Shown one piece after another: positions 3,256-22,034 of a stretch of 22,034 nucleotides of DNA. Within the stretch, counting starts at the first letter, position 1. Each line of letters opens with the position of its first letter. Source of the DNA: a virus; the IMG/VR virus record IMGVR_UViG_3300044646_002148, positions 1 to 22,034 of that record; one strand, 5' to 3'. A model generated the notes under the pieces. That model ran no database searches and was not told the DNA's origin. It was given only the letters and a program-made list of their open reading frames with translations. The position numbers were made by a program, and so were the translations under genes.

Positions 3256-3915
3256 ATGCGCTACTACTTAGACTCAGAATTTATAGAAAACGGCGTGACC
3301 ATAGATTTGATTTCTATTGGTATAGTTGCCGACGACGGACGCGAATACTACGCCATCAACAGTGAATGTGATTTTTCAAAGGCCAGTGACTGGGTGCTAG
3401 AAAATGTTTTGCACCCAATCGGATTAGATAAAGATGGGTTTAAGGTTAACCCGTCTGAACCTTGGGTAAAACCAGCTTATAGAGACTCCTATCTGTGCGC
3501 CCATCCAAAACAAGAAATTGCGCGTCAAGTTTTACGATTTACAAAACCAAGTATTTTACCCGTCCCGTCAGCAGATAAAGGCTACAAAGAATTAAGGGAC
3601 GCTGTAACAGAAGAATCTATAGAGTTTTGGGGTGAATGGTGTAGTTACGACTGGGTAGTTTTGTGTCAACTGTTTGGGGTGATGGCGGAATTACCGTTTA
3701 GCTTTCCAATGAGGTGTAGAGACGTTATCCAGTGGAAAGAGGATCATCTTAAATACGCGGGTGAATTACCTCCATCACTAGAAACCGACGGCAATCACAA
3801 CGCATTACTAGGAGCAAAAACCGTCAAAATGCGGTATGAATTTTTAAAAGATTTAGACGAAAAATCGATTATCCGTATAAAATATTCACCTTATACCCAA
3901 GCGTCATTAACTTGA
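3256..3915 (+). CDS. RNase AS-like 3'-5' exoribonuclease (DEDDh superfamily), 219 aa
   Basis: The start MRYYLDSEFIENGVTIDLIS closely follows the Rv2179c-like/RNase AS pattern, in which a polyadenylate-specific 3'-5' exoribonuclease carries DEDDh catalytic residues. Visible are D6 and E8 (motif I), D132 in YDWVVLCQLFG (motif II), and H181 in GNHNALLGAK (motif III). In active DEDDh enzymes motif III reads H-x4-D; here the Asp position is Gly186. The enzyme may therefore be weak, inactive or only RNA binding. Families of this kind need two metal ions held by the four acidic residues. It lies between tail genes and is likely an accessory gene. AGAG stands 8 bases before the ATG. The last 47 bases overlap the 3' end of the minus-strand gene 3869-4126. 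Confidence 0.8.
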   Translation: MRYYLDSEFIENGVTIDLISIGIVADDGREYYAINSECDFSKASDWVLENVLHPIGLDKDGFKVNPSEPWVKPAYRDSYLCAHPKQEIARQVLRFTKPSILPVPSADKGYKELRDAVTEESIEFWGEWCSYDWVVLCQLFGVMAELPFSFPMRCRDVIQWKEDHLKYAGELPPSLETDGNHNALLGAKTVKMRYEFLKDLDEKSIIRIKYSPYTQASLT

Positions 3916-6984: not shown

Positions 6985-9249
6985 ATGCCGAAAAAACAAT
7001 TTAAAGGATTTGGTGGTAGTGGGGGCCGTAAAAAATCCCCACCCAAGCCGACAGAAACAGCTATATCAGGGCGTTCCGTGTCTAACGCTGCAATGCTGGG
7101 GATTGTGTCAGAAGGGGAAATTGAGGGACTGGTTAACGGGCTGCAATCCGTCTATTTCGATGAAACTCCAGTGCAAAATGCCGATGGTTCGCTCAACTTC
7201 CAGGATTTTGGCTGGGACTGGCGACCCGGAACACAGGCACAGGGAAGAATGCCGGGTTTTGGGGATGAGGTCACTAGCGAAACCAGTGTTGCTACTGAGG
7301 TTAAGAACAACCTTCCCATCACTCGCACCATCGCTAATGGAAATTTAGATATTATTAGAATCCGCCTGGGCGTGGTGCTTCAGGAATACCCCCCAGACGG
7401 CGGGGTTTTGGGCTTAAATGTAACTTTTAGGATTTACCTAAAACAAGGTGCGGGGGCGTTCTATCTAGCTTATGAGGGCAACTTAGGCGGACGCTTTGCA
7501 ACCCTTACAGAATTTGAATATGCTTTTGCGGTCAATAATGTCGGTGGCACAGTAACAGATTTTAGCGTCAGAGTTGAGCGAGTAACGCCCCAAGATACCG
7601 ACTCTACAAGGTATCAGCGAGTTTTAACATGGCGCTCATTTACTGAAGTCACGGAAACTAAACTCAAATACCCTAATAGCGCGATGTTTGGGTTCAGATT
7701 TGATGCTGCACAATTCCAAGACACGCCGCAAATATCCCTAAGGTTGGCAGGGCGGAAAATTCAGATACCATCAAATGCCACCCCAACAGGTACAAGGGGA
7801 CTGACGTATAGCGGAACTTGGAACGGAACATTTTACACCCCATCAGTGGCAGTGGCAGATCCGGCGTGGATACTCTATGACCTGATCACTAACACCCGCT
7901 ATGGACTTGGCAGGTATATTAATCAATCCCAAATTGATAAATGGGCATTGTATGAGATTAGCCAATATTGCAATGAGTACGTCCCCAATGGATATGGAGG
8001 TACGGAACATCGTTTTCAATGCCACTTATTACTAGAGGGCAAAGAGGAAGCGTATAAGGTTATTCAACAGTTTCTATCAGTGTTTCGTGGTTTCAGCTAT
8101 TGGATGAATGGAGCGATCGCCTTTGTTGCTGACAAGCCCGGATCTCCAGTAGCACAATTTACTCAAGCCGATGTAGAAGATGGGATGTTTTCATATACCC
8201 GCACAGGACTAAAAACTAGAAATACTATAGCTTTGGTAACTTGGGTGAACCCTGACGACTTTTACCGTCGGTCAGTGGAAACCATTGATGATCCCAGTGG
8301 AATAGCTAAATATGGCGTTCGGGAAATAGAAATGTCTGCTTTTGCTTGTGTGTCAAGAGGTCAAGCGCGACGGGCTGGCTATGCTGCCTTGCTCACTGAC
8401 AGACTAGAACAGGAAACCGTATCTTTCCGATGTAGAGCCTATGGTGCTTATACCAAGCCGGGTGACATTATCAGGGTGATGGACTCAAAAAAGGCTGATA
8501 TCCGATACGGAGGATTGATTGCAGCAGCGACTACCACAGAAATTACCTTAGATCATGAAGTAGAGATTTTATCAGGGGAGACTTACACCCTCACGGTAAT
8601 GCTTGCTGATGGGACAGTACAGGAAAAATCCGTTACCAATTCGCCTGGACTAACTACAACGTTAACCCTTGCATCCGCTTTATCATCAGTGCCACCACCG
8701 GAAAGTAACTGGATACTGGCATCAACCACCGTACGGCCGCAGTTATTCCGGGTTTTAAATCGCGTACCGAGTTCCGGTAGCACGGAAATGATGCACGAAA
8801 TTACGGCTATTGAATACAACCCTGCCAAATATTCTCAGATTGAAAATGGCTGGAGTCTTGAGCCATTGCCACCCCGCCGCAATCCTCCCGTTGTTGTGTC
8901 AGTTCCCAGGAATATCACCCTCAGTTACCGCGCGATTGACCTATTTGATCTCAATGCAGTCTGGGATTTTCCGCTTTTGGGAAGTGAGCGAGATCCCTAT
9001 ATCACAGGCTACACCATTGAATTGCGGCTTGGCGATGACGATTTGTGGGGGAATAGCAGATTTGAAACAACTGCCTCAACGCAGTTTGCGAACATATCCG
9101 CAGGGAAATATTACGTCAGAGTCGCCGCAGTTGATCTCAATGGCAGGTCATCGCGTTGGGTAGTTTCTGACCCGATACTTCTAACGAAATACAACTGGGT
9201 AGGTATTTTCACTTCTCGATATGCTTCTGTATTTGCAATGGAATTTTAA
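6985..9249 (+). CDS. Tail tip / host specificity protein, lambda gpJ-like, 754 aa
   Basis: The glycine-rich N-terminus (FKGFGGSGG) followed by SVSNAAMLGIVSEGEIEGLVNG is typical of gpJ-type tail tip proteins. The segment near residues 292-310, DPAWILYDLITNTRYGLG, is a signature of the phage-tail_3/TipJ region, and later blocks (CHLLLEGKEEAYKVIQQFL, AFVADKPG) fit it too. Residues about 628-740 form a fibronectin type III-like domain. gpJ forms the tail tip hub and in lambda its C-terminus contacts the receptor. This protein is much shorter than lambda gpJ (1132 aa) and ends soon after the FN3 domain, so receptor binding is probably passed to the fibre encoded at 11068-13581. The start is preceded by a hairpin rather than a ribosome binding site. 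Confidence 0.85.
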   Translation: MPKKQFKGFGGSGGRKKSPPKPTETAISGRSVSNAAMLGIVSEGEIEGLVNGLQSVYFDETPVQNADGSLNFQDFGWDWRPGTQAQGRMPGFGDEVTSETSVATEVKNNLPITRTIANGNLDIIRIRLGVVLQEYPPDGGVLGLNVTFRIYLKQGAGAFYLAYEGNLGGRFATLTEFEYAFAVNNVGGTVTDFSVRVERVTPQDTDSTRYQRVLTWRSFTEVTETKLKYPNSAMFGFRFDAAQFQDTPQISLRLAGRKIQIPSNATPTGTRGLTYSGTWNGTFYTPSVAVADPAWILYDLITNTRYGLGRYINQSQIDKWALYEISQYCNEYVPNGYGGTEHRFQCHLLLEGKEEAYKVIQQFLSVFRGFSYWMNGAIAFVADKPGSPVAQFTQADVEDGMFSYTRTGLKTRNTIALVTWVNPDDFYRRSVETIDDPSGIAKYGVREIEMSAFACVSRGQARRAGYAALLTDRLEQETVSFRCRAYGAYTKPGDIIRVMDSKKADIRYGGLIAAATTTEITLDHEVEILSGETYTLTVMLADGTVQEKSVTNSPGLTTTLTLASALSSVPPPESNWILASTTVRPQLFRVLNRVPSSGSTEMMHEITAIEYNPAKYSQIENGWSLEPLPPRRNPPVVVSVPRNITLSYRAIDLFDLNAVWDFPLLGSERDPYITGYTIELRLGDDDLWGNSRFETTASTQFANISAGKYYVRVAAVDLNGRSSRWVVSDPILLTKYNWVGIFTSRYASVFAMEF

Positions 9250-9252
9250 ATT

Positions 9253-9687
9253 ATGCCCACACCACGCATTTACGTTGGGGGAGACGGAAGCCCCTATCAG
9301 CGATCGCTCACAAACTCGTCCGCAGGGACAACGGACAACCCCGATGTTGCTCATTTTGCGCTGAATTACTCAGAAGAAAGTCCGATTACTGGGGCAACAA
9401 TGCCGGCTGGGGGGATAGGAGCAATCGGTTGGTTGTCAGCGATTTGGAGACAGTTATCGGGAAATCAACGAACTCCAGGCTTTCTTAGCACAACTACCAC
9501 AGGCACGGTAACAGCAGGGGCTAAATCTGTGATTATTAAAAACGTTGGTGGTGCAGTGGGAACGGTTTTGACAGTCAACCTGCCAGTAGGGGAAACTCTT
9601 AACTTTGCAACTGCCGGAAACGACACTCTTGGGGCGATCGCTTACAACGCCACCGGAACAACTTTTCTGATCTCAGAGGTTCGATGA
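9253..9687 (+). CDS. Small tail-associated beta protein, 144 aa
   Basis: I do not recognise a named family. The protein starts MPTPRIYVGGDGSPY and has a C-terminal half (from about residue 76) of short strands rich in Thr, Val and Gly (TGTVTAGAKSVIIKNVGG) that resembles the small Ig-like or jelly-roll beta domains of phage tail and decoration proteins. It begins 3 bases after the gpJ-like stop and its TGA overlaps the next ATG, so it is co-translated with tail tip genes. Probable structural component of the tip or fibre attachment. Two HIP1 sites lie inside (9300, 9634). Confidence 0.65.
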   Translation: MPTPRIYVGGDGSPYQRSLTNSSAGTTDNPDVAHFALNYSEESPITGATMPAGGIGAIGWLSAIWRQLSGNQRTPGFLSTTTTGTVTAGAKSVIIKNVGGAVGTVLTVNLPVGETLNFATAGNDTLGAIAYNATGTTFLISEVR

Positions 9688-11063
9688 TGACGAACTATGA
9701 TTACATTAATTTTAGTTGTACATTGTCCGGTGTTTACGGCTCACCGGGGCTTTATGCAACTTTGGCTGATTGCGAAAACGCCGTAAATGATGGCAGTGTA
9801 AAGCCTGTTTTAATCCTGAATCCGTTGTGGAGTGCGTCTAAAAAAGCGTCACTTCCACTATTGATAAATAAATTGGGTGACGGGTATCAACAAATTGTTT
9901 TTCAGGGCGTTGATCTCATCAATGAAGAATGGTCTATAACTTCGCCTGTTTTGATAGGGACAGAAGTAGATGAATTACTAAATCAATTACGAAGTCTCTG
10001 TACAATTTCGTTTTTCTGGAGTCCCAATAACGGTGTAATTGATTATCGGGAGTTTGTCTGTGATGAATGGCAAAAAATACGGGTTGGGGTAAATCAATAT
10101 CAGCTTACAACAACATTTAGGAAAATTGGGGGCAAGAAAGATCGGTTTTTGAATTTGTTAATCCCTTCCTATATCATTGTTTGTCCTCCTACTGCTGGGT
10201 TTAAATTAGGCGGAACTATTGAAAGTGATGCTACACAATTCAAGTGGGAGCAAATAGCAGGAAATAAAACGGTATTATTTGATAATAATACGATCAAAGA
10301 GCCTACTATATTTATTCAATCAACCTGTTATACCACTGGGTGTGATGACGGTACTGGATTACCTATTATTCTTAGGGTTAGTTTAGCAAGTAATCCTGGT
10401 ATTTATTGGGATATTATTGTTTACAATACTCTCACCTCCACATACTTTGGCAACTCTGTAAGTCAAGGGGTATTGAGCGATAGAGTATGTCAGAAGGTTA
10501 CTTTCTTTCCTGCACCGTTGTACCCCCAAAAAGCTTACTGCGGAGAAGAAGGCACTCTTATATCTGTTCACTGGAATCCCCCTAGCTGTGAAAGTCAATT
10601 TGTAATTGGTTATAGCTTAGTTGCCAATACAACTGGTAGTTATATTGAAGTTGACTATGTAGATGTTAGTGAAGAAAGAACTTTCTTTTTAGAGTTCAAT
10701 AAACATTATAAAATAGTAACTGTATTTAGTTTCTATGGAAAAATAGTCAGAACTCCATCAGATATCATTTACTTGTCAACAAGTGAAACACAGCATTTCT
10801 TATTTGGTGATGATACTTATAATGGATTATCTACAAATAAACTTACTGACGGTTATTCTAAGGTAAACCTTAAAGTAACTACTTACGAATACAACGATAT
10901 CTATAATGGTCTTTCTATTTCTAAGCTAACTCAAGGTTACTCAAAGACAGACTTAAAAGTAACGTCTTACGAATATCAAGACAATTACACAAGTCAAATA
11001 TCTATTAGTAAATTAACCAGTAGTTATGTTAAAATAAACTTAGGCGGCATTGTTATTGGCTAA
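9684..11063 (+). CDS. Multidomain minor tail protein with gpM-like N-terminus, 459 aa
   Basis: Residues about 45-150 match the Phage_min_tail/gpM pattern: NPLWSASKK, LGDGYQQIVFQGVDLINEEWSI, EVDELLNQLRSL, FFWSPNNG, a conserved-looking DEW and TTFRKIGG. Next comes a PKD/REJ-like segment (about 165-255, containing FKWEQIAGNKTVLF). An FN3-like domain follows (about 282-370, beginning KAYCGEEGTLISVHWNPPSC). The C-terminus holds three tandem 28-residue repeats. gpM is normally only about 110 aa, so this looks like a fusion of a tip protein with exposed surface domains, perhaps a fibre adaptor. ATGATG at 9684-9689 gives two starts; GAGG lies 4 or 7 bases before them, favouring the second. A separate gpM-like gene is at 2899-3243. 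Confidence 0.7.
   Translation: MMTNYDYINFSCTLSGVYGSPGLYATLADCENAVNDGSVKPVLILNPLWSASKKASLPLLINKLGDGYQQIVFQGVDLINEEWSITSPVLIGTEVDELLNQLRSLCTISFFWSPNNGVIDYREFVCDEWQKIRVGVNQYQLTTTFRKIGGKKDRFLNLLIPSYIIVCPPTAGFKLGGTIESDATQFKWEQIAGNKTVLFDNNTIKEPTIFIQSTCYTTGCDDGTGLPIILRVSLASNPGIYWDIIVYNTLTSTYFGNSVSQGVLSDRVCQKVTFFPAPLYPQKAYCGEEGTLISVHWNPPSCESQFVIGYSLVANTTGSYIEVDYVDVSEERTFFLEFNKHYKIVTVFSFYGKIVRTPSDIIYLSTSETQHFLFGDDTYNGLSTNKLTDGYSKVNLKVTTYEYNDIYNGLSISKLTQGYSKTDLKVTSYEYQDNYTSQISISKLTSSYVKINLGGIVIG
10812..11060 (+). repeat. Three tandem 28-codon protein repeats
   Basis: Units start at 10812, 10896 and 10980 (84-base period). Units 1 and 2 share the pattern D-x-YNGLS-x-x-KLT-x-GYSK-x-x-LKVT-x-YEY; unit 3 keeps ISKLT and SY-x-K but is more diverged and is cut short by the stop codon. 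They form the C-terminus of the gpM-like fusion protein. Confidence 0.8.
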
Positions 11064-11067
11064 AGAT

Positions 11068-13581
11068 ATGAAAATTACAGGTAGCGTAGAAATAAGACGG
11101 ATTGATAGTGTTACTGGGAAGATTGTAGAAATAATTAAACAAAAGAATTTAATACCTGCCAACTCGTTGTTAGGGGTGTTGTCTCAAACAGCGACTAACA
11201 ACTATTTTGGTGCTAGACGCATTTCTATTTCTACTTCTACTACTGCTCCGAGTATTTTAAACTCTACATTAACTAATATTATTGCAACTGGTTATACCCC
11301 CGGCGGAGTTACCTCTCCTACCTGGAATCCCAATATTGAGCCTCCTTTTTTGCAAATACAAAATAGAATAGACTTTACAGGGACAGCTAGAACATTTAAT
11401 AGTGTTGGATTAACGGATTTGGGTACTAGCAATAATCAGGCTAATTTATCTACTACAACTTATGCTTATCTAAAACTTGATACAGTTTGTACGCAAGGGG
11501 CAACGGAGTTTTTAGATATCTTTTACAGAATCCAATTTACTAATGCTGGGGGACAAGGGTTTTTAGGTGATAGTGCTAGATATGACTTTGGAAAGAAGCT
11601 TTCATTTGCTCATAACGTAATTAATGACCCTGGCTCAGACCCTTTTCGTCTTCATTTTCTTTACTCGTCTTTCACAAAAAAGATTGAAGCTTTAGCTTAT
11701 AAGTCATTGCTTGTTTCTAATTCAAATTTTCTTGATGGTTTAGGAGGGACAACTGTTAACACTCATTATAAATACAAGTATTCTTTGTCTTACAATAGAG
11801 ATACTAAAGTTGGCAGTATTTACAATACTCTTCTGCAAGGAATAACCGAAAGAAATACTATTGATACTGCCTATAGCTCTACTTCTTTTTATTATCCCCA
11901 AGAACCATTCCAAACAGGGTTTTGGCATAGTTCCGCAGCCCCCACACCTTTCTTTGATGCCAGCTTTGCGGGTAGTTCTAATGGTGTTCCCACACTTGCA
12001 GGAACTTGGACTGGTAAACTACCTGAATTATTTAAACTAACTATTACCAATACGGGTGCGGTTGGTGTAGCGACCTATAAGTTATCTGTTCGTAAACACC
12101 TTGGTTTTAATGGTAGCAACTACACCGATTTAACAGTAGGAACTCCATTTAGAAACCCTAATGCTCCAGCGCATCCCAGACATCATGGGTGGAGGAAAGA
12201 AAATAATGATTTACTCCGTTGGTCTAACACGCAGATAGTTCAATATGATGATACTGGGGTAACTTCACTTGATATATTTGACGGAACTTTCACCACTTGG
12301 GATAGTTTGTCAACTCCGGTATTAGGTGCAACTCAAATAAGACAAGTAGCGGTAAACCCTGCAAATAATTTAATTTATGTTGCCTGTAGAAATAACGGTC
12401 TTTATATTATTAATACCAGTTTAAATACTGTCACGTTACAATTAAATAATCCTTGTTACGGGGTTGATGTAGGAAGAAATGGTAGAACTTTTGCTTTGGT
12501 TAGTGGCGGTCTTTATAGCTCTAATAATTGGGCAGTTCCTGAGACTTTTACATTTACTGGAATTAGTGACGGAAATTGGTCAAGAGTCTATTTCTTAAAA
12601 GCAGACCCTGAAAATGTTAACGACCAAATAGCTATTGTTGCTGAGAATGCAGCTAATACAAATAGAAGAATAGTATGGTGGCAACCTTCCACACCAACGG
12701 CTGTGTTGGGCTATGAGGGAGGTGAGATAAAAAGATGGACTGCTAGTTTAGATGTTAGTGATACTGGAAGTTTTTGGGCAGCACAAACATCAAGATTTAC
12801 TTACGGAACTACCACAAGATCTGGATTGAGTTGGGTCATTCCTTGGGAAAACCTTACTCATTCTATCTTTGGTTTTGATGCTTACTACAAAGTAAGTTTC
12901 TATCTTGGGAATTTAATCACAAATGATAGATTAGTAAGTTCGGCAAATGCTTCAGTAGTTACATACACGGCATTAGGAACTACCCCAACACTCCTACATC
13001 TAGATAGTGGAATAACTCTCTACGCATCAATGAGACAACTATTTACAGATAACGCTTATTGCTGGACTGACTACGGTTGGAATGGAAGTGCTTGGGTTGC
13101 TGGTAATGCTAATTCTAAAACTACTCATGCGGGGGCGGAAGCATTGCTAAATGGAATTACAGTTGCCTTTACCAATGGGGCTAACCCACCGCATTTCACT
13201 TCTACTAATTATTTTACTCAGGGAATATGTTACGGCTTATGGAAGGATAATGCCACTTCCCTGGACTACTCATCTGCTTGGTACTCAATCCCAGTAATCT
13301 TTGACCAATCTGTAAGTCTGACTATTCCTGCTACCGCGCCTTACACATTAACTTTGACTGATGCAACTACTCACCCTTCATTTATCAGGATAGAAACTGA
13401 CACCCCACAATTGCATAAGCTTACAATTAATGGGACACCTGTTACACAAATCTATACTAATGGCGCAGCCCCAGCCCCAGGAGAAATTAGTATGCAATCT
13501 TCCGGGAATGGGGTGCTGACATTTAATGCTGCCGATGCTGGAAAAACACTTGGAGGGACTTATACGTGGCTAAAATTCTAA
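11068..13581 (+). CDS. Tail fibre / distal tail protein, 837 aa
   Basis: The N-terminus (KITGSVEIRRIDSVTGKI, then NLIPANSLLGVL and NYFGARRISISTS) is of the kind found in phage tail fibre proteins that start with a small attachment domain followed by T/S/N-rich beta structure. Residues about 390-590 contain repeats such as QVAVNPANNLIYVACRNNGLYIIN and GVDVGRNGRTFALVSGGLYS, which look like blades of a beta-propeller. The remainder is beta-rich, with aromatic residues and no coiled coil. Base composition is noticeably more AT-rich than in the gpJ-like gene. It is the best candidate for the receptor-binding protein. The frame opens at TTG 11050, but ATG 11068, four bases after the preceding stop, is preferred. 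Confidence 0.7.
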   Translation: MKITGSVEIRRIDSVTGKIVEIIKQKNLIPANSLLGVLSQTATNNYFGARRISISTSTTAPSILNSTLTNIIATGYTPGGVTSPTWNPNIEPPFLQIQNRIDFTGTARTFNSVGLTDLGTSNNQANLSTTTYAYLKLDTVCTQGATEFLDIFYRIQFTNAGGQGFLGDSARYDFGKKLSFAHNVINDPGSDPFRLHFLYSSFTKKIEALAYKSLLVSNSNFLDGLGGTTVNTHYKYKYSLSYNRDTKVGSIYNTLLQGITERNTIDTAYSSTSFYYPQEPFQTGFWHSSAAPTPFFDASFAGSSNGVPTLAGTWTGKLPELFKLTITNTGAVGVATYKLSVRKHLGFNGSNYTDLTVGTPFRNPNAPAHPRHHGWRKENNDLLRWSNTQIVQYDDTGVTSLDIFDGTFTTWDSLSTPVLGATQIRQVAVNPANNLIYVACRNNGLYIINTSLNTVTLQLNNPCYGVDVGRNGRTFALVSGGLYSSNNWAVPETFTFTGISDGNWSRVYFLKADPENVNDQIAIVAENAANTNRRIVWWQPSTPTAVLGYEGGEIKRWTASLDVSDTGSFWAAQTSRFTYGTTTRSGLSWVIPWENLTHSIFGFDAYYKVSFYLGNLITNDRLVSSANASVVTYTALGTTPTLLHLDSGITLYASMRQLFTDNAYCWTDYGWNGSAWVAGNANSKTTHAGAEALLNGITVAFTNGANPPHFTSTNYFTQGICYGLWKDNATSLDYSSAWYSIPVIFDQSVSLTIPATAPYTLTLTDATTHPSFIRIETDTPQLHKLTINGTPVTQIYTNGAAPAPGEISMQSSGNGVLTFNAADAGKTLGGTYTWLKF

Positions 13582-13616
13582 AGGGGAAAACTGAAAGCAA
13601 CTTATAAAAACGTCCT

Positions 13617-14330
13617 ATGCCTTTAGTTATTGCCCGTCCCTCAGTTGTCGAAACTACACTGGGGATTACCTTTCAAATTGGTGAACTTCCTACGCAAACA
13701 GTAGGCGATGTTGTTATTAGTTCTAGGACACCGACTTCCTACACAATCACCACCTCTACAACTGCATCATCTGGCGCGGAATCTATTGCTGTAGCTGCCT
13801 TGCCAGTAGCGTTGGATGCTGGGACTATCCTAACTTTCGGAAGTACCACAGTGACAGTCAGTAATCGCGCTGCTGCTGCTGCAACATCAATCCAAACCTT
13901 GCCGCTATCAGCCTCAGTTGCCAGCGCGGCAACTGCAACAACCAAAGCCCTTGTATTCGTCGCAGGGTGTACAGAGGCTACAGTCTCACCCCAGATCAAG
14001 AACTCCGACACCACTAATTATTTAAGTGGACTGGGGATGGAGAAGGTCACGGTAGGCAACGCCAAAACAATGAACCTAAACTTTAACTTGGTTTACGGTG
14101 ATTTGGGCGGTGGCATCCTTCGTAAGATTGCCTACGACAACGCTTTTGCTGGACGTGAGTTTTACTTTAGACTGGCGTTTCCAAGCGGCGAAGTTTATGA
14201 GGGTGTTGCTTTACTTGAATCAGCATCACCTCAAAACCCAGTTCAGGAAAAACGGGCTTTTAGTTGTACCGCACAGATCCAAGGTGCTAACTATTTCTAC
14301 ACAGCCCCGACAGTCGTGACTATTTCCTGA
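13617..14330 (+). CDS. Major tail tube protein with inserted Ig-like domain, 237 aa
   Basis: The outer parts read as a siphovirus tail tube protein. The C-terminal segment FYFRLAFPSGEVYEGVALL and then QNPVQEKRAFSCTAQIQG matches the end of lambda gpV-like tube proteins, which assemble as stacked hexameric rings around the tape measure. Residues about 36-125 are an alanine/threonine-rich stretch (SGAESIAVAALPVALDAGTI, FGSTTVTVSNRAAAAATSIQ) that resembles a repeat-type beta domain found as an insertion or surface decoration in structural proteins of cyanobacterial phages. If so, it would stick out from the tube. The gene follows the fibre gene by 35 bases; AAGGGG stands too far upstream (about 30 bases) to be a ribosome binding site. 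It is directly upstream of the chaperone genes, as in lambda. Confidence 0.75.
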   Translation: MPLVIARPSVVETTLGITFQIGELPTQTVGDVVISSRTPTSYTITTSTTASSGAESIAVAALPVALDAGTILTFGSTTVTVSNRAAAAATSIQTLPLSASVASAATATTKALVFVAGCTEATVSPQIKNSDTTNYLSGLGMEKVTVGNAKTMNLNFNLVYGDLGGGILRKIAYDNAFAGREFYFRLAFPSGEVYEGVALLESASPQNPVQEKRAFSCTAQIQGANYFYTAPTVVTIS

Positions 14331-14333
14331 TAG

Positions 14334-14597
14334 ATGTTATTGCATAAATGCCTCCACTCAAACGGGCATACAGTAACCTTGTTAAACTGTAAGCTGCACT
14401 CAGATCATTTGATTTGTGGTGCGGCTTATTTCACATCTGGGCTGCCTGAAATCATGCCTTTGTACAGTTTATCTGGCGAAAAAGTCAGTTTAATTGTCGT
14501 GCCAGATGCTGCTAGAAAAAGCCCAACATTTACCCGATTACTCTCACCACAAGACGATATAAGGATAGAATATGCAAAACCCTTGGGGAATCCCTGA
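14334..14597 (+). CDS. Hypothetical protein, 87 aa
   Basis: I do not recognise this protein. It contains several His and Cys (HKCLHSNGH, CKLHSDHLICG) in the first 30 residues, arranged so that metal binding is conceivable, followed by a beta-rich half (LYSLSGEKVSLIVVPD). An in-frame TAG stands directly before the ATG, so the start is fixed. It begins 3 bases after the tube stop and overlaps the chaperone gene by 26 bases. Its place between tube and chaperone suggests a structural or assembly role. Confidence 0.55.
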   Translation: MLLHKCLHSNGHTVTLLNCKLHSDHLICGAAYFTSGLPEIMPLYSLSGEKVSLIVVPDAARKSPTFTRLLSPQDDIRIEYAKPLGNP

Positions 14598-15360
14598 AAT
14601 AGTTGCTGTCGCTGGTTTTCCGCTGCCTAAAATGGGTGGACTAAACCCTGAAGAAAAAGATTATATGGCTGATAAAATCCGTAATGTGCAGTTCCAGGAA
14701 ATTGCACCATTAGCAGAAATTGCGGATATCGTTGTCGAAAAAGAGAAGATTAGTCAAACTGAAGCCGTGGCTTTAATCCGCAAAACTCTAGAAGGAAATA
14801 CGGGTAAAACTGAAGAAGAAATAGACAGATTACTTGCTTTTGCGATTGATTACCGCAATGAATTGGGGCGGATCAAAAAACCTGAAATGATGGTTGAGCG
14901 ACAATCCCAAGAAGTTGCAATTATGATTTTAAAATCACGACTTGCACCTGATTGGATATTAGCTAATATTGACAACTTAAAAGCATCTTTCCGGTGTTCA
15001 CTCGATAAAGAAAAATGCTCTCAATTGATGGCAATTCCCGAAGAAAGATGGATGACCGATTTAATAAGGGATGAAGTTATTAGAGCAATTGTCCGCAAAC
15101 TTCCTGAAAATCTTTACTCACAAATTGCCTCATTTGCATTAGGTGAAGAGAGAGAATGGGCGGAATTGCCAGTATTTACCATTGAACAAGAACCAGAGGA
15201 AGTAACGCTGGGGGAGCAATCAAAAGGCTTCGGGAATACCACGAACTCACGGAGAAAGAAAGGGAGTTCTACCGAGAAAGTTACTTTACCATCCAATACT
15301 TCGGAGTCACAGACCCCAGTTTCCACCGTCGAAGCTTCCACCGTACCCCTTGCTGGGTAA
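14572..15360 (+). CDS. Tail assembly chaperone, gpG-like (zero-frame product), 262 aa
   Basis: The gene stands between the tube and tape measure genes, the conserved place of the tail assembly chaperone (lambda G). The protein is acidic and helical through residue about 205 (for example EAVALIRKTLEGNTGKTEEE). After that it becomes low-complexity, Ser/Thr-rich and probably disordered. AAGGA stands 6 bases before the ATG. A second frame, displaced by -1, is open from 15186 to 15638 and encodes a well-structured helical sequence, which is the expected layout of a G/GT pair made by programmed frameshifting. These chaperones coat the tape measure before tube polymerisation. Sequence similarity to known gpG families is not obvious; the call rests mainly on position and architecture. 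Confidence 0.65.
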   Translation: MQNPWGIPEIVAVAGFPLPKMGGLNPEEKDYMADKIRNVQFQEIAPLAEIADIVVEKEKISQTEAVALIRKTLEGNTGKTEEEIDRLLAFAIDYRNELGRIKKPEMMVERQSQEVAIMILKSRLAPDWILANIDNLKASFRCSLDKEKCSQLMAIPEERWMTDLIRDEVIRAIVRKLPENLYSQIASFALGEEREWAELPVFTIEQEPEEVTLGEQSKGFGNTTNSRRKKGSSTEKVTLPSNTSESQTPVSTVEASTVPLAG

Positions 15361-15638
15361 TCAGGGAAATGGTAGAGAGTTTGTACCGTCAGTATAAATT
15401 GCATACCAATTTAGAATCGAGTGCGATCGCTAAGATAGGCGCGTCATTCTCTGAAAAGGCTACTTTACAAGACTTTTTACCATTCCCGGATACAGACCAG
15501 GGGCAAAAGCAGAAAATACCAATGTCACGGGAGACAGCACAAATCTATATTGAGTTGCGAGATATTGGCGTTCTTCCTCTCCGTGTACTTGGGGCATTTG
15601 CAGATATTGAGGGAGAGATTGAAAAGTTAGTTAAATAG
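15186..15638 (+). CDS. Frameshifted C-terminal extension of the tail assembly chaperone (gpT-like part)
   Basis: This frame is -1 relative to 14572-15360 and is open from just after a TGA at 15183. From about 15219 it reads IKRLREYHELTEKEREFYRE and then SYFTIQYFGVTDPSF, clearly protein-like, although no start codon occurs until ATG 15369 (which would give only 89 aa). It ends QIYIELRDIGVLPLRVLGAF and then a short acidic helix. The simplest reading is a GT-type fusion: about 215 residues of the chaperone plus about 140 residues from this frame, about 355 aa in all. In lambda the GT extension binds the tape measure and recruits tube subunits. Independent translation from ATG 15369 cannot be excluded but would leave 180 bases of good coding sequence unexplained. 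Confidence 0.65.
   Translation, partial: TRTRGSNAGGAIKRLREYHELTEKEREFYRESYFTIQYFGVTDPSFHRRSFHRTPCWVIREMVESLYRQYKLHTNLESSAIAKIGASFSEKATLQDFLPFPDTDQGQKQKIPMSRETAQIYIELRDIGVLPLRVLGAFADIEGEIEKLVK
15210..15269 (+). other. Candidate -1 frameshift signal
   Basis: Two slip candidates lie early in the frame overlap, in zero frame: G-GGG-GAG (15210-15216) and A-AAA-GGC (15222-15228). In both the P-site codon can re-pair perfectly one base back, but the A-site codon cannot, so neither is a textbook X-XXY-YYZ heptamer. GAGGAA (15196-15201) could act as an internal Shine-Dalgarno stimulator. A stem GAACTC/GAGTTC (15243-15248 / 15264-15269) lies downstream. Confidence 0.4.
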
Positions 15639-15678
15639 CGTGTTGGGGAAAATTACCACTAACGCCATCCCCAACCGC
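15638..15678 (+). promoter_or_regulatory. Hairpin covering the gap before the tape measure start
   Basis: GCG-t-GTTGGGG (15638-15648) pairs with CCCCAAC-CGC (15669-15678), 10 base pairs with one bulged T and a 20-nt loop. It fills the 41-base gap from the stop codon of the chaperone extension to two bases before ATG 15680. The only purine-rich candidate ribosome binding sequence (GGGGAAAA) is partly inside the stem. Confidence 0.55.
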
Positions 15679-15679
15679 T

Positions 15680-18600
15680 ATGACATCCCTCGGTACTCTC
15701 GAACTACAGTTGACGGCCAACCAAGCCGCACTATACCAACAATTAAATCAAACCAAGGCTTACGCCACACAAGTCGCCAAGGATATCGAGAAACTGATAA
15801 ATCAAGCCTTTGGTAGTGTCGGGGGGCAGAATAATTTAGCAGGGTTAAACCAAGCAACTGCTCAAGCTGCGAGCGCTGGACAAGCCGCTGGTAGAACTTT
15901 CACAGATAGATTCAAGAACGCAGTTGAGCCGATTAAGGGCATTTTAAGCAGCGTCTTTAACGGTGTTTTTGTTGGGGCGGGAATCGGGGCGTTTAACTCA
16001 ATTACTGGTGTAGTTGGTTCAGCGTTGGGTGCGGTTCAACAATTCGCGGGTGAGATATTTAATGTTACTAAGGATTTTCAGGGGTTTGAAGCTTCGCTAA
16101 AAACCTTTCTTAGAGGCAATCAACAGGAAATTGATAAATTTGTCAGCAGTTTAGAAAAGTTTGCAGCTACCACGCCGTATGAGCTAAAGGATTTACAGCA
16201 AGCAGCAATCCAAAACTTAGCAACCGGTGCAAAACCAGATCAGATTATCAAAGACCTCAAAACCATTGGTGATGTCGCCGCAGGTGCTAACGCCAGACTT
16301 GGCGACTTGATGGAAGTTTACGCCAAATCACGGACTGAGGGGAAATTACAGAATGAAGACATTGACCAATTTACGGGGCGCGGGGTGCAGCTTCGGGCTG
16401 AACTTGCCAAAATGCTAGGGGCAAAGGAATCTGAAATTAGACAACTGGCCACAGACGGAAAACTAGAATTTCGTCACCTTGAGGAAGCTTTACGCCGCAT
16501 GAGTGCTGAGGGCGGGGCGTATTTTGGGGCAATGGAGAATAAAGCCAAAACCTTAGAAGGCCGTCTATCCAACGTCCAAGATACTTTTTATCAGTTCCAG
16601 AAATCTATCGGCGTGGCATTTGAGCCGATCATGAATTTCATTGTCCAGACATTTGGTGATATTGTGTCTGGCTTGACATCTTCTAACGGAATCATGAAGG
16701 ATGTCCGCAAAGAATCTGAGAAATTAGTCGAAACTTTTAAAGCTAATCCGCAGTTGGTTCAATCCCTAAATGAAGCTATTCAAGAGTTAGTAGCAGGTGG
16801 GTTTAAATTATTATTAGACGGGATAACAAGTTTCACTAAATATTTAGAAACTAACCCGAATATTATCAGGGATATGTCTACTGCCTTTAATGATTTTTGG
16901 TCAGTAGTTAAGGGCGTTTTTGACGGATTAAAATTTATTTTTGATGGTATTAATTTTGTTGTTGGTGGCATCCAAGCAGGTGCTAGAGGTGCGGCGGATA
17001 TTTGGGTTGCCAGTGAATCAACTTTAAGTAATCTCTGGGAAATAACAAAAGGCATAGCCAAAGCCGTAGGGGATTATTTAGTTTTTGAATGGAATGTAGT
17101 AACTGGCGTAATTAAAACCATAATTAAGTTAATTCAAGACTTATTTAATGGAGTTGTAAATCTCGCAACTAACGGGATTAATCTATTCACCAAAGGACTA
17201 CAAAACGCAGTATCAATTACACAGAATATTGGTAAAAATATTAGCGGTTGGGCTTCAAGTATTGGTAGTGCTATTCAAAAAGCTGGGGAGTTTGCAAATC
17301 AGGGAATACCGGGAATTGGCAGTGCATTCGAGAAGGTAACTAAAAAGGCTGAGGAATTTTGGAAATGGGCGACGGGACAAAATCAGCAGGCAGTATCAAC
17401 GCCACAGGCACAACCCCAACCAGGTAATAACAGTAGCGGAATTGTAGGTAATATTGTTCAAGGTGTAGAGGGCTTTTTTAGCGGTGGCAATGCCATTAAT
17501 CAGCGTAAATACAGAATTGTCGAAAGAGTTGGCAGCAGGATGGAGAATGTTGGAAAATATGAAGATTTAGCACCTCATCACCCTTCAGTAGTTGCCCGTG
17601 GGGGACACAAAGACAGACCCTATGGAATGGTCGAGGGCAGGAAAGAAGAACTAAACCCGTTAAACAGAAGCTTGATCAAAAAGGATTTCGTTCTGATTGA
17701 TTCCCAGGGTAAGCAGTACGGAGTTCCTGTTCCCAGTCCGGTCGCTGGCTACGCTGGCAAAGTCGGACAGGGTTGGGGCGCGGTTAATCTGTATGCTGAC
17801 AAGGGCATGACTAAACTGATAGCCCAGGTCGGACATATGATTGACTTACAGGTTAAGAATGGGCAATTAATCCAATACGGTCAAACGTTGGGGATGCAAG
17901 CGGGGATGGGGAAAAAGGGATCTCGTACTTACGGAACTCACGTTGATATGTCCGCAGATCCCGAAACCTACAGAAAATATATAAGGGATTTACAGGCTGG
18001 GGTTTTCAAAAGCGAGGGACAGAACCCTTTCCAACAAGGTGTCAATGCTGTAAAACAATTATTTACCCCAGTCCAAAATGCACTACCCACAGGCGCGGGT
18101 TTGTCATCTCGCACTGCCAATATTGTGCGTGGCAAGAATGAGGGGATTTTCGGTAAAGCAGGTATAACAGATAGTTTAGTGGAATTAGTTAAGCGGTCTG
18201 AAGATTTTGAAGCTACACCATATTTTGATCGCACTCAATACTCGGTTGGTTTCGGAACTAAGGCTAAATCAACAGGGGAGAGGTTGACGGTTGAAGAGGC
18301 GAACCAACGGCTATTGGAGGAGCTACTTTACAAACGCTCTCGCGTCTCCAAAATGGTCAAAGTGCCTATCAATAATAATCAACTAGATGCTTTGACCTCA
18401 TTTGCTTTTAACGTCGGTGAAGGGGCATTAGGAGAAAGTACCCTACTCAAAAAACTAAACTCTGGGGATTATGCAGGGGCGGCTAAAGAGTTTCTGAGAT
18501 GGAATAAAGGTGAGTATCGCGGAGTTAAGCAGGTTTTACCAGGGCTAACTAAGCGGCGTAATTCTGAGATGCAATTATTTCTGAGTCAGGGACAATCAGC

Positions 18601-20827
18601 GTCCTCCCCGTCTATTAGTCAACAATCAGAAGCCAGGAATCAGCAAGTTACTGGCGCGGCTCAAGGTGGCAATGCTGAAGATCAACGGAATTTATTAGCA
18701 GCACGACGTAAACTTTCAGAAACCAAATACCGGGAAATTAAAGAAGAGATTGACGCAGCTACCAAACAATCTGACAACGCTCAAAAACAGCAGCGAGAAT
18801 TAGATGCTAAAAAACGCGAACAAGCTGACAAGCAAAAACGACTAGAATTTGCAGCCTATGAGGCTTTAGCACCGGATGAAGAAGCTAAAAAGATTGTGCA
18901 AAAAAGAGCTAAATTGTACGAAATCAACAATAGATATGATGAGGATTTGATCAAGAAAACTCAGGAATTGGAAGATTTAAAAGATGCTAGGGACAAGAAA
19001 TTAAAGATTCTGGCGGAGGCTAAAAAACGTGGTGAAACTGTCACGCCGGATGATGCTGGCGTGGATTACACCAAAGCAATTAATCAATTAGAGCAAGTCA
19101 TACAAGAGCAAAAATATTCACGGGATTTAGAATTAGAAACTAATAAATTAAACCTATTCAATGCGGATAAAGAAGTCGAGAAAAATAAGGATCGTCAGCG
19201 AGAAATTGAAAAGTTATCTCGCGCTCAAGAAGCGTACATCAATCAGTTAAAATTGCAGCAATCGTTAGTAACAGATGAAGCGACAAAACAGGGTATTCAA
19301 TTAACAATTGATAAGGCACAAATTGAATACGAAGCGAAAACCGCACTAATGCCGTTGCAAAATAAGCTTGATGATTTTCAAGATCAGAAAGTTTATTTAC
19401 TGGGTGAAGGTGGTTTAAAAAATGATTCCGAGGAAGTTAAACGGCTTCAAAAAGATATTAATGATTTAGTTGCTCAAATTAATTCAATCGCCGATAAGGG
19501 CGGCGTAGATTTGAAATTATTCGAGAATCAGCGTAAACAAATTGAGTTACAGAATCAACGGTTAAGGGAGTCAGAAAAACAGGAAATTGAATACAGCAAA
19601 CAAGTTCTTGAGCTTAATAAAGAAATTTCTACCTCACGGACTCAACAACAGAAAGCAGAGTTACAATTCCAGTTAGATAAAATAAATGCAATTCAACAAG
19701 AAAAACAAGCATTAACCACTCTTAAACAGCAATATGATGATTTAACCCAAGGACGCGAGAAGTTAATCAATGAGGGCAAAGTTGACGCTGCTAGTGCCGT
19801 AATTAAAGATTTAGACACTAAGATTGCTGACTTAAACGAAAAGATAAAAACGCTTGGCGAACAGTCAAAATTAAGTTTTGAAACTCTCACCAAAGAAGGA
19901 CAAAAAACCATTGAACAAGGTAGATTTGCGGATCTAGAATCTGCACTTTCTAGAGAGTCGGGGTTTGTAAATAGTCAAGCATCAATCTTGTCTGGGCAAG
20001 CTGGTTTAATTCGCGGGCGTGGTGGCAATGAATATCAAGCATCTGCATTAGAAGCTGAAGCCGCGACAATGCAAGAACAGATTAGATATAAACAGGAATT
20101 ACTGCAAATCGAGCAACAAATAGCCGCAGTAAGAGGGAAGGCTAACGAGTACACAGAACAGGAAATAGCCACATTACAAGCCAATGCCGAAACGATTAAT
20201 AAAATTAATTTAGAGGGTATTTCTCAACAGGTACGGACACTTGGTAAAGACTTATTAGACGTTGGTAAAAACGCCCTCGGTTCGTTCTTTGGTGACATCA
20301 TTTCTGGTTCTAAATCTGCGGGGGATGCCTTCAAAGATTTGGTTGGCAACATTGCTCAACAATTAACTCAATTAGCGGTTAATTCTCTCATTTCCAATAT
20401 CTTCGGTGGAGGTGGTGGTATTCTCGGATTCTATCAAGGTGGTATAGTTCCAAATTACGCCAATGGGGGAAGTGTTGGGGCGGTAACTGATGCCTTGCAC
20501 CGCGAAAGATCAATGTCGGGAGGCAAGAACCCGGTACTAGCAGCCCTAACACCGGGCGAAATGGTGCTAACAATTCAACAAGCTAAACGATTCCAAGAAC
20601 TGCGGTTAGATAAAGTATTGAATTTTGCGAATGGTGGGGTTGTCGAAGGTGGTCAAAATTTAGGGTCACAAATTGGGTCTAAAGATATGACCATAAATAT
20701 CCCCGTCACTGTAGAAGGCGGCGGGGATAGCTCGGTTAATGTTCCACAATTGCAAAATTCTCTAAGGTCGGTTGTGTTGGCGGAAATCCAAAAACAACAG
20801 CGTCCGGGCGGGGCGTTGAATAAATAG
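15680..20827 (+). CDS. Tape measure protein with M23-like and GH24 lysozyme domains, 1715 aa
   Basis: By far the longest gene, following the chaperones. Residues about 130-330 match the tape measure N-terminal domain (TIGR02675 type: FAATTPYELKDLQQAA, EGKLQNEDIDQFTGRGVQL). A hydrophobic, glycine-rich region follows (about 400-560). Residues about 680-765 resemble an M23 peptidase fold (GVPVPSPVAGYAGKVGQGWG, H719, TYGTHVDM), but the usual H-x-H is H754-V-D756 and no clear H-x3-D precedes it. Residues about 834-975 are a GH24 lysozyme: E841 and D850 at the T4 lysozyme spacing of nine, with S855 near the position of T4 Thr26. A long coiled-coil region runs from about 1000 to 1510, and a glycine-rich tail with PGEMVLT and FANGGVV typical of tape measures ends the protein. 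It sets tail length and probably degrades peptidoglycan at DNA entry. Confidence 0.9.
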   Translation: MTSLGTLELQLTANQAALYQQLNQTKAYATQVAKDIEKLINQAFGSVGGQNNLAGLNQATAQAASAGQAAGRTFTDRFKNAVEPIKGILSSVFNGVFVGAGIGAFNSITGVVGSALGAVQQFAGEIFNVTKDFQGFEASLKTFLRGNQQEIDKFVSSLEKFAATTPYELKDLQQAAIQNLATGAKPDQIIKDLKTIGDVAAGANARLGDLMEVYAKSRTEGKLQNEDIDQFTGRGVQLRAELAKMLGAKESEIRQLATDGKLEFRHLEEALRRMSAEGGAYFGAMENKAKTLEGRLSNVQDTFYQFQKSIGVAFEPIMNFIVQTFGDIVSGLTSSNGIMKDVRKESEKLVETFKANPQLVQSLNEAIQELVAGGFKLLLDGITSFTKYLETNPNIIRDMSTAFNDFWSVVKGVFDGLKFIFDGINFVVGGIQAGARGAADIWVASESTLSNLWEITKGIAKAVGDYLVFEWNVVTGVIKTIIKLIQDLFNGVVNLATNGINLFTKGLQNAVSITQNIGKNISGWASSIGSAIQKAGEFANQGIPGIGSAFEKVTKKAEEFWKWATGQNQQAVSTPQAQPQPGNNSSGIVGNIVQGVEGFFSGGNAINQRKYRIVERVGSRMENVGKYEDLAPHHPSVVARGGHKDRPYGMVEGRKEELNPLNRSLIKKDFVLIDSQGKQYGVPVPSPVAGYAGKVGQGWGAVNLYADKGMTKLIAQVGHMIDLQVKNGQLIQYGQTLGMQAGMGKKGSRTYGTHVDMSADPETYRKYIRDLQAGVFKSEGQNPFQQGVNAVKQLFTPVQNALPTGAGLSSRTANIVRGKNEGIFGKAGITDSLVELVKRSEDFEATPYFDRTQYSVGFGTKAKSTGERLTVEEANQRLLEELLYKRSRVSKMVKVPINNNQLDALTSFAFNVGEGALGESTLLKKLNSGDYAGAAKEFLRWNKGEYRGVKQVLPGLTKRRNSEMQLFLSQGQSASSPSISQQSEARNQQVTGAAQGGNAEDQRNLLAARRKLSETKYREIKEEIDAATKQSDNAQKQQRELDAKKREQADKQKRLEFAAYEALAPDEEAKKIVQKRAKLYEINNRYDEDLIKKTQELEDLKDARDKKLKILAEAKKRGETVTPDDAGVDYTKAINQLEQVIQEQKYSRDLELETNKLNLFNADKEVEKNKDRQREIEKLSRAQEAYINQLKLQQSLVTDEATKQGIQLTIDKAQIEYEAKTALMPLQNKLDDFQDQKVYLLGEGGLKNDSEEVKRLQKDINDLVAQINSIADKGGVDLKLFENQRKQIELQNQRLRESEKQEIEYSKQVLELNKEISTSRTQQQKAELQFQLDKINAIQQEKQALTTLKQQYDDLTQGREKLINEGKVDAASAVIKDLDTKIADLNEKIKTLGEQSKLSFETLTKEGQKTIEQGRFADLESALSRESGFVNSQASILSGQAGLIRGRGGNEYQASALEAEAATMQEQIRYKQELLQIEQQIAAVRGKANEYTEQEIATLQANAETINKINLEGISQQVRTLGKDLLDVGKNALGSFFGDIISGSKSAGDAFKDLVGNIAQQLTQLAVNSLISNIFGGGGGILGFYQGGIVPNYANGGSVGAVTDALHRERSMSGGKNPVLAALTPGEMVLTIQQAKRFQELRLDKVLNFANGGVVEGGQNLGSQIGSKDMTINIPVTVEGGGDSSVNVPQLQNSLRSVVLAEIQKQQRPGGALNK

Positions 20828-20995
20828 CTACACCATACCCCACGCGTTGCCAATTTTCTGCAAGTATTCAGTGTCTTTCTTCAACATCTGCTCATAGTGC
20901 GCCACAAGTTGCTGCTTCACCTGTTCCGGTGACATCTGCTGTACTTGCATCTTAAAAGCGGCAATCTGAAACTGCTGCTCAGTAGTTAATTGCAT
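20828..20995 (-). CDS. nblA: Phycobilisome degradation protein NblA, 55 aa
   Basis: The minus strand encodes MQLTTEQQFQIAAFKMQVQQ, then MSPEQVKQQLVAHYEQML and KKDTEYLQKIGNAWGMV. This matches the NblA pattern throughout: L-x-x-EQQF near the start, the F-x-x-QV and MS-x-x-QVK/A segments, L-x-x-x-YEQM, and a C-terminal WG. Length (55 aa) is normal for the family. NblA is a small helical adaptor that binds phycobiliproteins and brings them to Clp protease, dismantling the light-harvesting antenna. Cyanophages such as Microcystis phage Ma-LMM01 and Planktothrix phage PaV-LD are known to carry it. Here it lies on the opposite strand to the tape measure gene; the two stop codons touch with no base between them. 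A promoter is visible at 21047-21019. Confidence 0.92.
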   Translation of the reverse strand: MQLTTEQQFQIAAFKMQVQQMSPEQVKQQLVAHYEQMLKKDTEYLQKIGNAWGMV

Positions 20996-21011
20996 ATAGT
21001 TACCGTAATTT

Positions 21012-21047
21012 CGATAACTTTATCGTATAATCAATAGGTAATGTCAG
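21012..21047. promoter_or_regulatory. Divergent promoters with shared palindromic operator
   Basis: Towards nblA (minus strand) CTGACA (21047-21042) is followed after 17 bases by GATAAA (21024-21019). Towards the DinD-like gene (plus strand) a perfect TATAAT lies at 21026-21031, with a poor -35. The palindrome CGATAA-CT-TTATCG (21012-21025) covers the nblA -10 and abuts the plus-strand -10, so one bound regulator could block both. The plus-strand leader downstream can form a stem GGGAAG/CTTCCC (21056-21061 / 21072-21077). Confidence 0.55.
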
Positions 21048-21120
21048 CACGGCGAGGGAAGCCATCTACTACTTCCCAGTCCGTTACAGCCGACAGTCCA
21101 TGAACCGTGAGAAATGAACT

Positions 21121-21930
21121 ATGAACAGTTTAACAAAGATTGACGACAATGCAAGCCCATTTGACACTATCCGCCGGGTTGATGACAGTGGCGAATTTTG
21201 GTCAGCGCGTGAATTAATGACATTAATGGGTTATCCAAGATGGGCAAAATTTGAAAGCCCAATCATTCAAGCTATCGAAAACCTAGAACTTACTGGGGAT
21301 AAGACTCCTGACCACTTTTTACCCTTGATGGTAAAAAGTCAGGGACGCAACGGCAGTGATTACAGACTTTCACGGTATGCCTGTTACATGATTGCATTGT
21401 GCTGTGACGGCAGAAAAATTGAGGTAGCATCCGCCAAAAAATACTTTGCAATCAAAGCCCGTGAAGCTGAAATTATTATCCCTCAGCAAAACGATAGAAT
21501 CCGTGAACTAGAGTTACAGGTACAACTAGCACAAGCTGAAGCGCAAAAAGCATTGGCGGAAAAATCCGTCCTTGACACGCGCCATTTAATTGTCGCAACC
21601 TGTCCTGAACCCATGCAGCAAAAAATACTGGGGTTTGAGGTTGTCAAAGAAATTGAATACAGAGATCGCATAATCCAAGACAACCAAATTGTTAACGACG
21701 GGTCAACCGTCAACAAAACCGCACTATGCAAGCGTTACGGATTCATGACTAAAAGTGGTAAACCTGATTACGTCAAATTAAACAAGCATTTAGAATCGCT
21801 CAAAATCCCTGATTACGCCTGGGAGAATGTACCAAGCGTCCGCGACAATCAGGAGTTACGGCGTGATTATTTGGGTGAATTGGACAAGATGATTATGGAT
21901 GATTCCCGTCAGCTTTGGTTTGGGGAGTAG
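21121..21930 (+). CDS. DinD/Bro-N-type antirepressor-like protein, 269 aa
   Basis: Residues about 12-115 (SPFDTIRRVDDSGEFWSARE, LMGYPRWAKFESPIIQAIEN, DYRLSRYACYMIALCCDGRK) follow the pattern of the N-terminal domain of DinD (DNA-damage-inducible protein D) and related Bro-N/antirepressor proteins. A helical segment rich in Ala, Gln and Glu (about 123-148, a probable coiled coil) links it to a C-terminal part that contains NKTALCKRYGFMTKSGKPDY, a possible DNA-binding helix-turn-helix region. Phage proteins of this kind usually interfere with a repressor during induction. Only a weak GAGA precedes the ATG. It faces away from nblA and shares an intergenic region with it. Family call fairly safe, exact role unknown. 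Confidence 0.7.
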   Translation: MNSLTKIDDNASPFDTIRRVDDSGEFWSARELMTLMGYPRWAKFESPIIQAIENLELTGDKTPDHFLPLMVKSQGRNGSDYRLSRYACYMIALCCDGRKIEVASAKKYFAIKAREAEIIIPQQNDRIRELELQVQLAQAEAQKALAEKSVLDTRHLIVATCPEPMQQKILGFEVVKEIEYRDRIIQDNQIVNDGSTVNKTALCKRYGFMTKSGKPDYVKLNKHLESLKIPDYAWENVPSVRDNQELRRDYLGELDKMIMDDSRQLWFGE

Positions 21931-21932
21931 TT

Positions 21933-22034
21933 ATGACAGTAAGTGATTTGGTTTCATTTGTTGCTGGATGCAGAGACACCCGATTACTTCGGTGGCATGG
22001 GGTAAATACAAAAGTTACCTGTTGTTGCGGTAAA
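21933..22034 (+). CDS. Partial hypothetical protein, first 34 codons
   Basis: An ATG two bases after the stop of the DinD-like gene, with GGGGAG 5 bases upstream, opens a frame that runs off the window. It begins MTVSDLVSFVAGCRDTRLLR and continues to a CCC triplet at the edge (TKVTCCCGK). The cysteines could belong to a zinc-binding site, but too little is visible to name it. Confidence 0.5.
   Translation, partial: MTVSDLVSFVAGCRDTRLLRWHGVNTKVTCCCGK

Follow-up and report, generated by a model that had tools for sequence, protein, structure and literature searches.

The window analysed here is a stretch of 22,034 nucleotides from the IMG/VR virus record IMGVR_UViG_3300044646_002148, and it carries a short minus-strand open reading frame (ORF) next to the tail tape measure gene. 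Phage nblA as such is already known; the question raised by this locus is whether the ORF is a genuine nblA gene and, if so, what controls it. An earlier note, made from the letters of the sequence alone, had read the ORF as a 55-codon nblA, and a frame of that length with an ATG start is indeed present (Table 1). The same note described its location as an intergenic gap, but no such gap exists: the nblA stop codon (20828–20830, minus strand) abuts the stop codon of the tape measure gene (20825–20827). The suggestion that the gene is too short for usual gene-finding cut-offs is also doubtful, as the frame measures 168 nt and gene finders such as Prodigal usually apply a floor of 90 nt.

Table 1. 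Coordinates of the features discussed in the text (positions within the window).
Feature	Position	Strand	Description
Tail tip protein J, lambda-like	6985..9249	(+)	phrog_31 central tail fiber J, 682 bits
Tail tape measure gene, internal lysozyme domain	15680..20827	(+)	TMP_3 75.7 bits, Phage_lysozyme 108.9 bits
nblA	20828..20995	(-)	ATG start, 55 codons, 55 aa, NblA family
Operator-like site CGATAAAGTTATCGAAA	21009..21025	(-), nblA strand	14-30 bp upstream of the nblA start codon
Conserved leader of the antirepressor-like gene	21025..21100	(+)	Begins GTATAAT; two-phage alignment
Antirepressor-like gene	21121..21930	(+)	BRO-N/DinD-like N-terminus, cassette-specific C-terminus; divergent from nblA

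The proposed NblA identity was borne out by an HMM search against the Pfam NblA family (PF04485), which returned 43.2 bits (E = 5e-11, cut-off 25) over residues 2–44. NblA of Anabaena PCC 7120 (PDB 1ojh) aligns with residues 2–54 of the product (E = 7e-9). We also built our own HMM exclusively from 57 distinct host NblAs obtained in a genome-collection scan; on this model the window NblA reached 60.5 bits, and the best other frame of the window 3.5. The top score among 87,064 frames from 200 dinucleotide-preserving shuffles was 10.5 bits, and a chance ORF was rejected on this basis. An AlphaFold monomer, computed with the NblA loci collected in this analysis as the input alignment, adopted a helix-loop-helix arrangement with helices at residues 5–20 and 23–51 (mean pLDDT 94), matching the layout reported for NblA (two helices, a short loop, ~55–65 residues); members of the family form homodimers built as a four-helix bundle. 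A Foldseek search of this very short model (55 residues) against the PDB gave no match, and comparing folds therefore brings no support over and above the secondary structure. On this sequence evidence, the frame encodes a phage NblA.

At the residue level, the window NblA keeps the host-consensus N-terminal positions L3, E6, Q7, Q8, F9, F14, Q17, V18, M21 and S22, and retains W52 and G53 at the C-terminus. Positions 47 and 49 hold K and G, as opposed to L/F and K/R in 57 out of 57 distinct host NblAs. L51 and K53 of 1ojh, which we take to be the equivalents of these two positions, reportedly matter for phycobiliprotein binding, a result ascribed to Bienert et al. in 2006. The N-terminal motif of NblA is reported to bind ClpC and the C-terminal one phycobiliproteins (PMC4103541, PMC9602691). 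Expression of the NblAs of PaV-LD, MaMV-DC and a marine phage led to pigment loss, and PaV-LD NblA was reported to cause phycobilisome degradation (PMC4103541, PMC9602691). Since the C-terminus of PaV-LD NblA diverges at least as strongly as that of the window NblA, yet the protein is reported to be active, K47 and G49 make activity less expected without removing that expectation. The window NblA would act as a small adaptor of ClpC, bringing phycobilisome proteins to the Clp protease.

Loss of the frame in related phages, which the earlier note would have counted against an nblA gene, was looked for, and the frame was found intact in those relatives that carry it. Two IMG/VR contigs (L002 and L003) encode a protein identical to the window NblA, and a second phage, seen in contigs L004 and L005, encodes one that is 81% identical and lies at a different genome position. 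Codons 1–34 of the two phages differ by five synonymous and no non-synonymous changes, indicating purifying selection on the N-terminal part, and codons 35–55 by seven synonymous and 14 non-synonymous changes. This C-terminal divergence may have arisen either by selection or at a recombination joint. More distant nblA genes were found at a third position in related phage regions of G110 and G176 (Nostocaceae, the name used here for the Chrysosporum bergii family), where nblA overlaps the preceding gene and adjoins a sigma-factor-like gene. In an NblA tree, the phage copies fall inside a set of otherwise Nostocales-type host NblAs, with inner support that is weak because the alignment has only 55 columns. 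Recent capture from a sequenced host was rejected: the genome-collection scan with the window NblA yielded no close relative, the best host NblAs being ~48–50% identical.

A broader alignment recovered 66 NblA-bearing IMG/VR loci, the majority of which match the window phage in nothing else. These loci, and the marine phages that also carry the gene (PMC9602691), show that phage nblA extends beyond the few freshwater phages from which it had been described. Many freshwater viral contigs (L064–L111) share one close group of NblAs of 67–86 aa that are ~40% identical to those of Ma-LMM01 and MaMV-DC, and the abundance of this group suggests that the named isolates greatly understate how common phage nblA is. 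Separately, gp151 of Nodularia phage vB_NspS-kac65v151 (L245 2426–2656), listed as a hypothetical protein, resembles a divergent NblA; it scores 20.8 bits, below the cut-off of 25, and ends in AWGIGS, and eight further Nodularia phage records are alike.

The gene that diverges from nblA encodes an antirepressor-like protein with matches to phrog_8036 (3e-24) and to phrog_63, anti-repressor Ant (2e-4); BRO-N (17.5 bits) and NCBIfam DinD (99 bits) both remained below their cut-offs. These matches suggest that the product could act as an antirepressor, and nblA is, as originally described, a cyanophage gene with the tape measure gene on one side and a regulatory gene on the other. The counterpart in the second phage (L004 7088–7880) has a Rha N-terminus (52 bits, above cut-off). 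Between the two phages, the C-terminus of the antirepressor-like protein is 89% identical and the leader is kept, while the N-terminus has been swapped (BRO-N/DinD-like vs Rha). An IMG/VR scan found this C-terminus in the four cassette contigs alone, and a scan without a positive control found none in 210 Nostocaceae genomes.

The surroundings of the gene pair were compared with contig G001, which is 98.7% identical to window 15678–22034 (a shared 6.4 kb). On G001, a 238-aa ORF together with nblA and the antirepressor-like gene separates the tape measure gene from a JAB/NlpC tail gene; where the insertion is missing (G025/G110, L026), the JAB/NlpC tail gene follows within ~20–70 bp of the tape measure gene. 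In the second phage the pair is flanked by a minor tail gene on one side and a tape measure gene in inverted orientation on the other. Thus, nblA and the divergent antirepressor-like gene form a modular cassette, whose insertion point in the window's phage lies after the tape measure gene, ahead of the following tail gene. Family membership, predicted helices, frame retention and cassette layout are shown directly by the sequence analysis.

The neighboring tail region has several features of its own. The tape measure protein contains a full lysozyme domain (residues 838–963) and a weak M23 peptidase-like stretch, and so may also cut the cell wall as a virion protein. Window 3256–3915, within the tail region, encodes an Rv2179c-like 3'-5' exoribonuclease (36.9 bits); a 35% relative precedes the tape measure gene in G001. 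Among L013, the window (6985–20827), G110 contig 53 and G176 contig 32, the J block varies in its orientation relative to the major tail/tape measure block, a pattern that looks like the outcome of repeated inversions of the tail module.

The spacer between nblA and the antirepressor-like gene measures 125 bp and contains CGATAAAGTTATCGAAA, which includes the palindrome CGATAA-CT-TTATCG (21012–21025) and lies directly against the antirepressor-like gene's conserved TATAAT. An HTH_3 repressor-like gene lies outside the window, on G001 (14550–15179, minus strand), and the region between it and its divergent neighbor holds three sites, CGATAAAGGTATCGAAA, TGATAAAGGCATAGAAA and CGATAAAGACATATAAA, at an exact 20-bp spacing. 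The second phage (G004) shows the same three-site layout beside a very similar repressor gene. We built an operator matrix from the six repressor-region sites of G001 and G004, leaving the nblA site out. The nblA site scored 24.3 bits on this matrix, the next best site in the window 10.8, and no shuffle of the window (400 made) or of the spacer (5000 made) scored as high. Across the 30.6 kb of G001, four sites exceeded 24 bits, three at the repressor and one at nblA, and the fifth best scored 7.9. By this measure, the site at nblA and those beside the repressor gene of the near-identical G001 share one type. This suggests that CGATAAAGTTATCGAAA is an operator of the phage's lysogeny repressor, and that the window's phage has a repressor of the G001 type. 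The nblA site of the second phage (G003/G004), CAATAATTTTATTG, is a perfect palindrome with changes on both arms; it scored 0.66 bits, no better than chance. The site match is not conserved across the cassette phages, and the sequence argument for such control therefore applies to one of the two.

A promoter of its own had been proposed for nblA; our scan for consensus sigma-70 promoters and terminators found none. On the nblA strand, the operator-like site overlaps a weak sequence, GATAAA, that could serve as a -10 element, located 17 nt after CTGACA. Because nblA lies on the opposite strand and has a repressor-type operator-like site just upstream, its expression is probably separate from that of the late genes, as the earlier note had expected. 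NtcA control as in host nblA was rejected, as no GTA-N8-TAC occurs near the gene. The leader of the antirepressor-like gene is 76 nt long and differs at a single position between the two phages, which makes it more conserved than either of the genes, and it holds an imperfect inverted repeat (21049–21061 / 21072–21084). The leader core was found in IMG/VR in the four cassette contigs only, matched no Rfam family, and showed no unusual folding (a z-score of only -1.0). The idea of a wider element was dropped, since the two weak matches in Nostocaceae genomes both fell within an unrelated gene.

The phage and its hosts were placed by means of protein J, for which two Nostocaceae genomes encode relatives at 69% and 65% identity, and G110 was the sole strong match across 386 phylum-wide genomes. 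Only distant proteins (36–42% identical) were found in 293 genomes of the Planktothrix order. The closest named phages by J infect Cylindrospermopsis (45%). The Nostocaceae phage regions with their own nblA point to Nostocales as the likely host group. An integrase match (phrog_1, E = 4e-7) lies near the repressor gene on G001, neither gene being on the window itself, and the G110 phage region looks integrated, as it ends beside a glmS-like host gene. The window thus probably comes from a temperate, lambda-like tailed phage of heterocystous cyanobacteria (Nostocales).

Our preferred reading, to which we assign a probability of roughly 0.6, is that of an active phage NblA cassette kept off by the lysogeny repressor and derepressed on induction. 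In the lysogen, the HTH repressor would sit on the spacer operator, holding both nblA and the antirepressor gene off, and the host antennae would stay in place. Induction or lytic entry would release both genes; the antirepressor would strengthen the switch, and NblA would drive phycobilisome degradation, supplying amino acids and reducing light damage during virion production. The timing of nblA expression and the degradation of phycobilisomes by the window NblA are predictions from the comparisons above. A bolder extension, which we put forward tentatively and consider somewhat doubtful, is that phycobilisome breakdown is a strict output of the lysis-lysogeny switch, with the changed C-terminus possibly targeting a different phycobiliprotein or a new Clp substrate.

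The site in the spacer could instead be a functionless remnant of control-region recombination, beside a genuine and active nblA that is transcribed from an ordinary early promoter. That the second phage carries the cassette without a matching site fits such a history, and the nblA of Ma-LMM01 is an early gene (PMC4103541). We nevertheless regard it as unlikely, because the four sites far outscore everything else in the 30.6 kb and the one away from the repressor falls precisely in the divergent spacer beside the conserved TATAAT, while the second phage retains a perfect palindrome despite the changes on both arms.

Another explanation concerns the protein itself: an NblA relative with a new role, in which the N-terminal ClpC motif is kept and the C-terminus no longer serves phycobilisomes. 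Such a protein may deliver another substrate to Clp, or block host NblA via mixed dimers. The concentration of all 14 non-synonymous changes in codons 35–55 and the replacement by K47 and G49 of residue types shared by all 57 distinct host NblAs would fit this, but W52 and G53 are retained and PaV-LD NblA, equally divergent at the C-terminus, is reported to degrade phycobilisomes (PMC4103541, PMC9602691), which makes a new role rather improbable. As for a chance frame or a decaying gene without a product, the ORF is short, glutamine-rich and divergent from host NblAs, but the shuffle statistics speak strongly against it, as do the purifying selection on codons 1–34 and the intact frame at different genome positions in two phages, and we consider it scarcely credible.

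Work on phage nblA has so far centered on phages of Microcystis, Planktothrix and marine picocyanobacteria; our literature search found no paper tying it to a lysogeny repressor. The present analysis adds that nblA and an antirepressor-like gene form a modular cassette and are likely repressed together, and that the phage is probably temperate, with Nostocales as its likely hosts. Silence of nblA in the lysogen would be a simple reason why its carriage does not harm the lysogen. A direct test also becomes possible, namely whether prophage induction, beyond nitrogen starvation, bleaches a cyanobacterial filament.

Compared with known systems, the window NblA shares with NblA of Anabaena PCC 7120 (1ojh) and other Nostocales hosts the family, length, helix-loop-helix, residues L3/E6/Q7/F9/F14/Q17/V18 and W52-G53, but it is only ~43–48% identical to them, has K47/G49, lacks an NtcA site and is phage-borne. 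Freshwater Ma-LMM01 and MaMV-DC (Microcystis) and PaV-LD (Planktothrix) likewise encode NblAs of the same Pfam family; however, these phages belong to other lineages, and their nblA lies beside nrdA or overlaps a thymidine kinase gene. We know of no lysogeny-repressor operator at nblA in any of the three, and tblastn with the window NblA did not find their NblAs, which are too divergent. Expression of MaMV-DC- and PaV-LD-type NblAs results in pigment loss (PMC9602691). Marine cyanophages also carry nblA (Nadel et al. 2019; S-SCSM1), and one marine-metagenome copy proved active, but the carriers are podo- and myoviruses of marine Synechococcus and Prochlorococcus. With lambda-type switches that include an antirepressor (P22 Ant, Rha, BRO-N), the cassette phage shares the repressor gene with spaced operator-like sites and a divergent gene, an antirepressor-like gene that has such a site too, and an accessory gene inserted as a cassette; the difference is that the accessory gene here would be an antenna-degradation adaptor sharing its putative site with the antirepressor-like gene.
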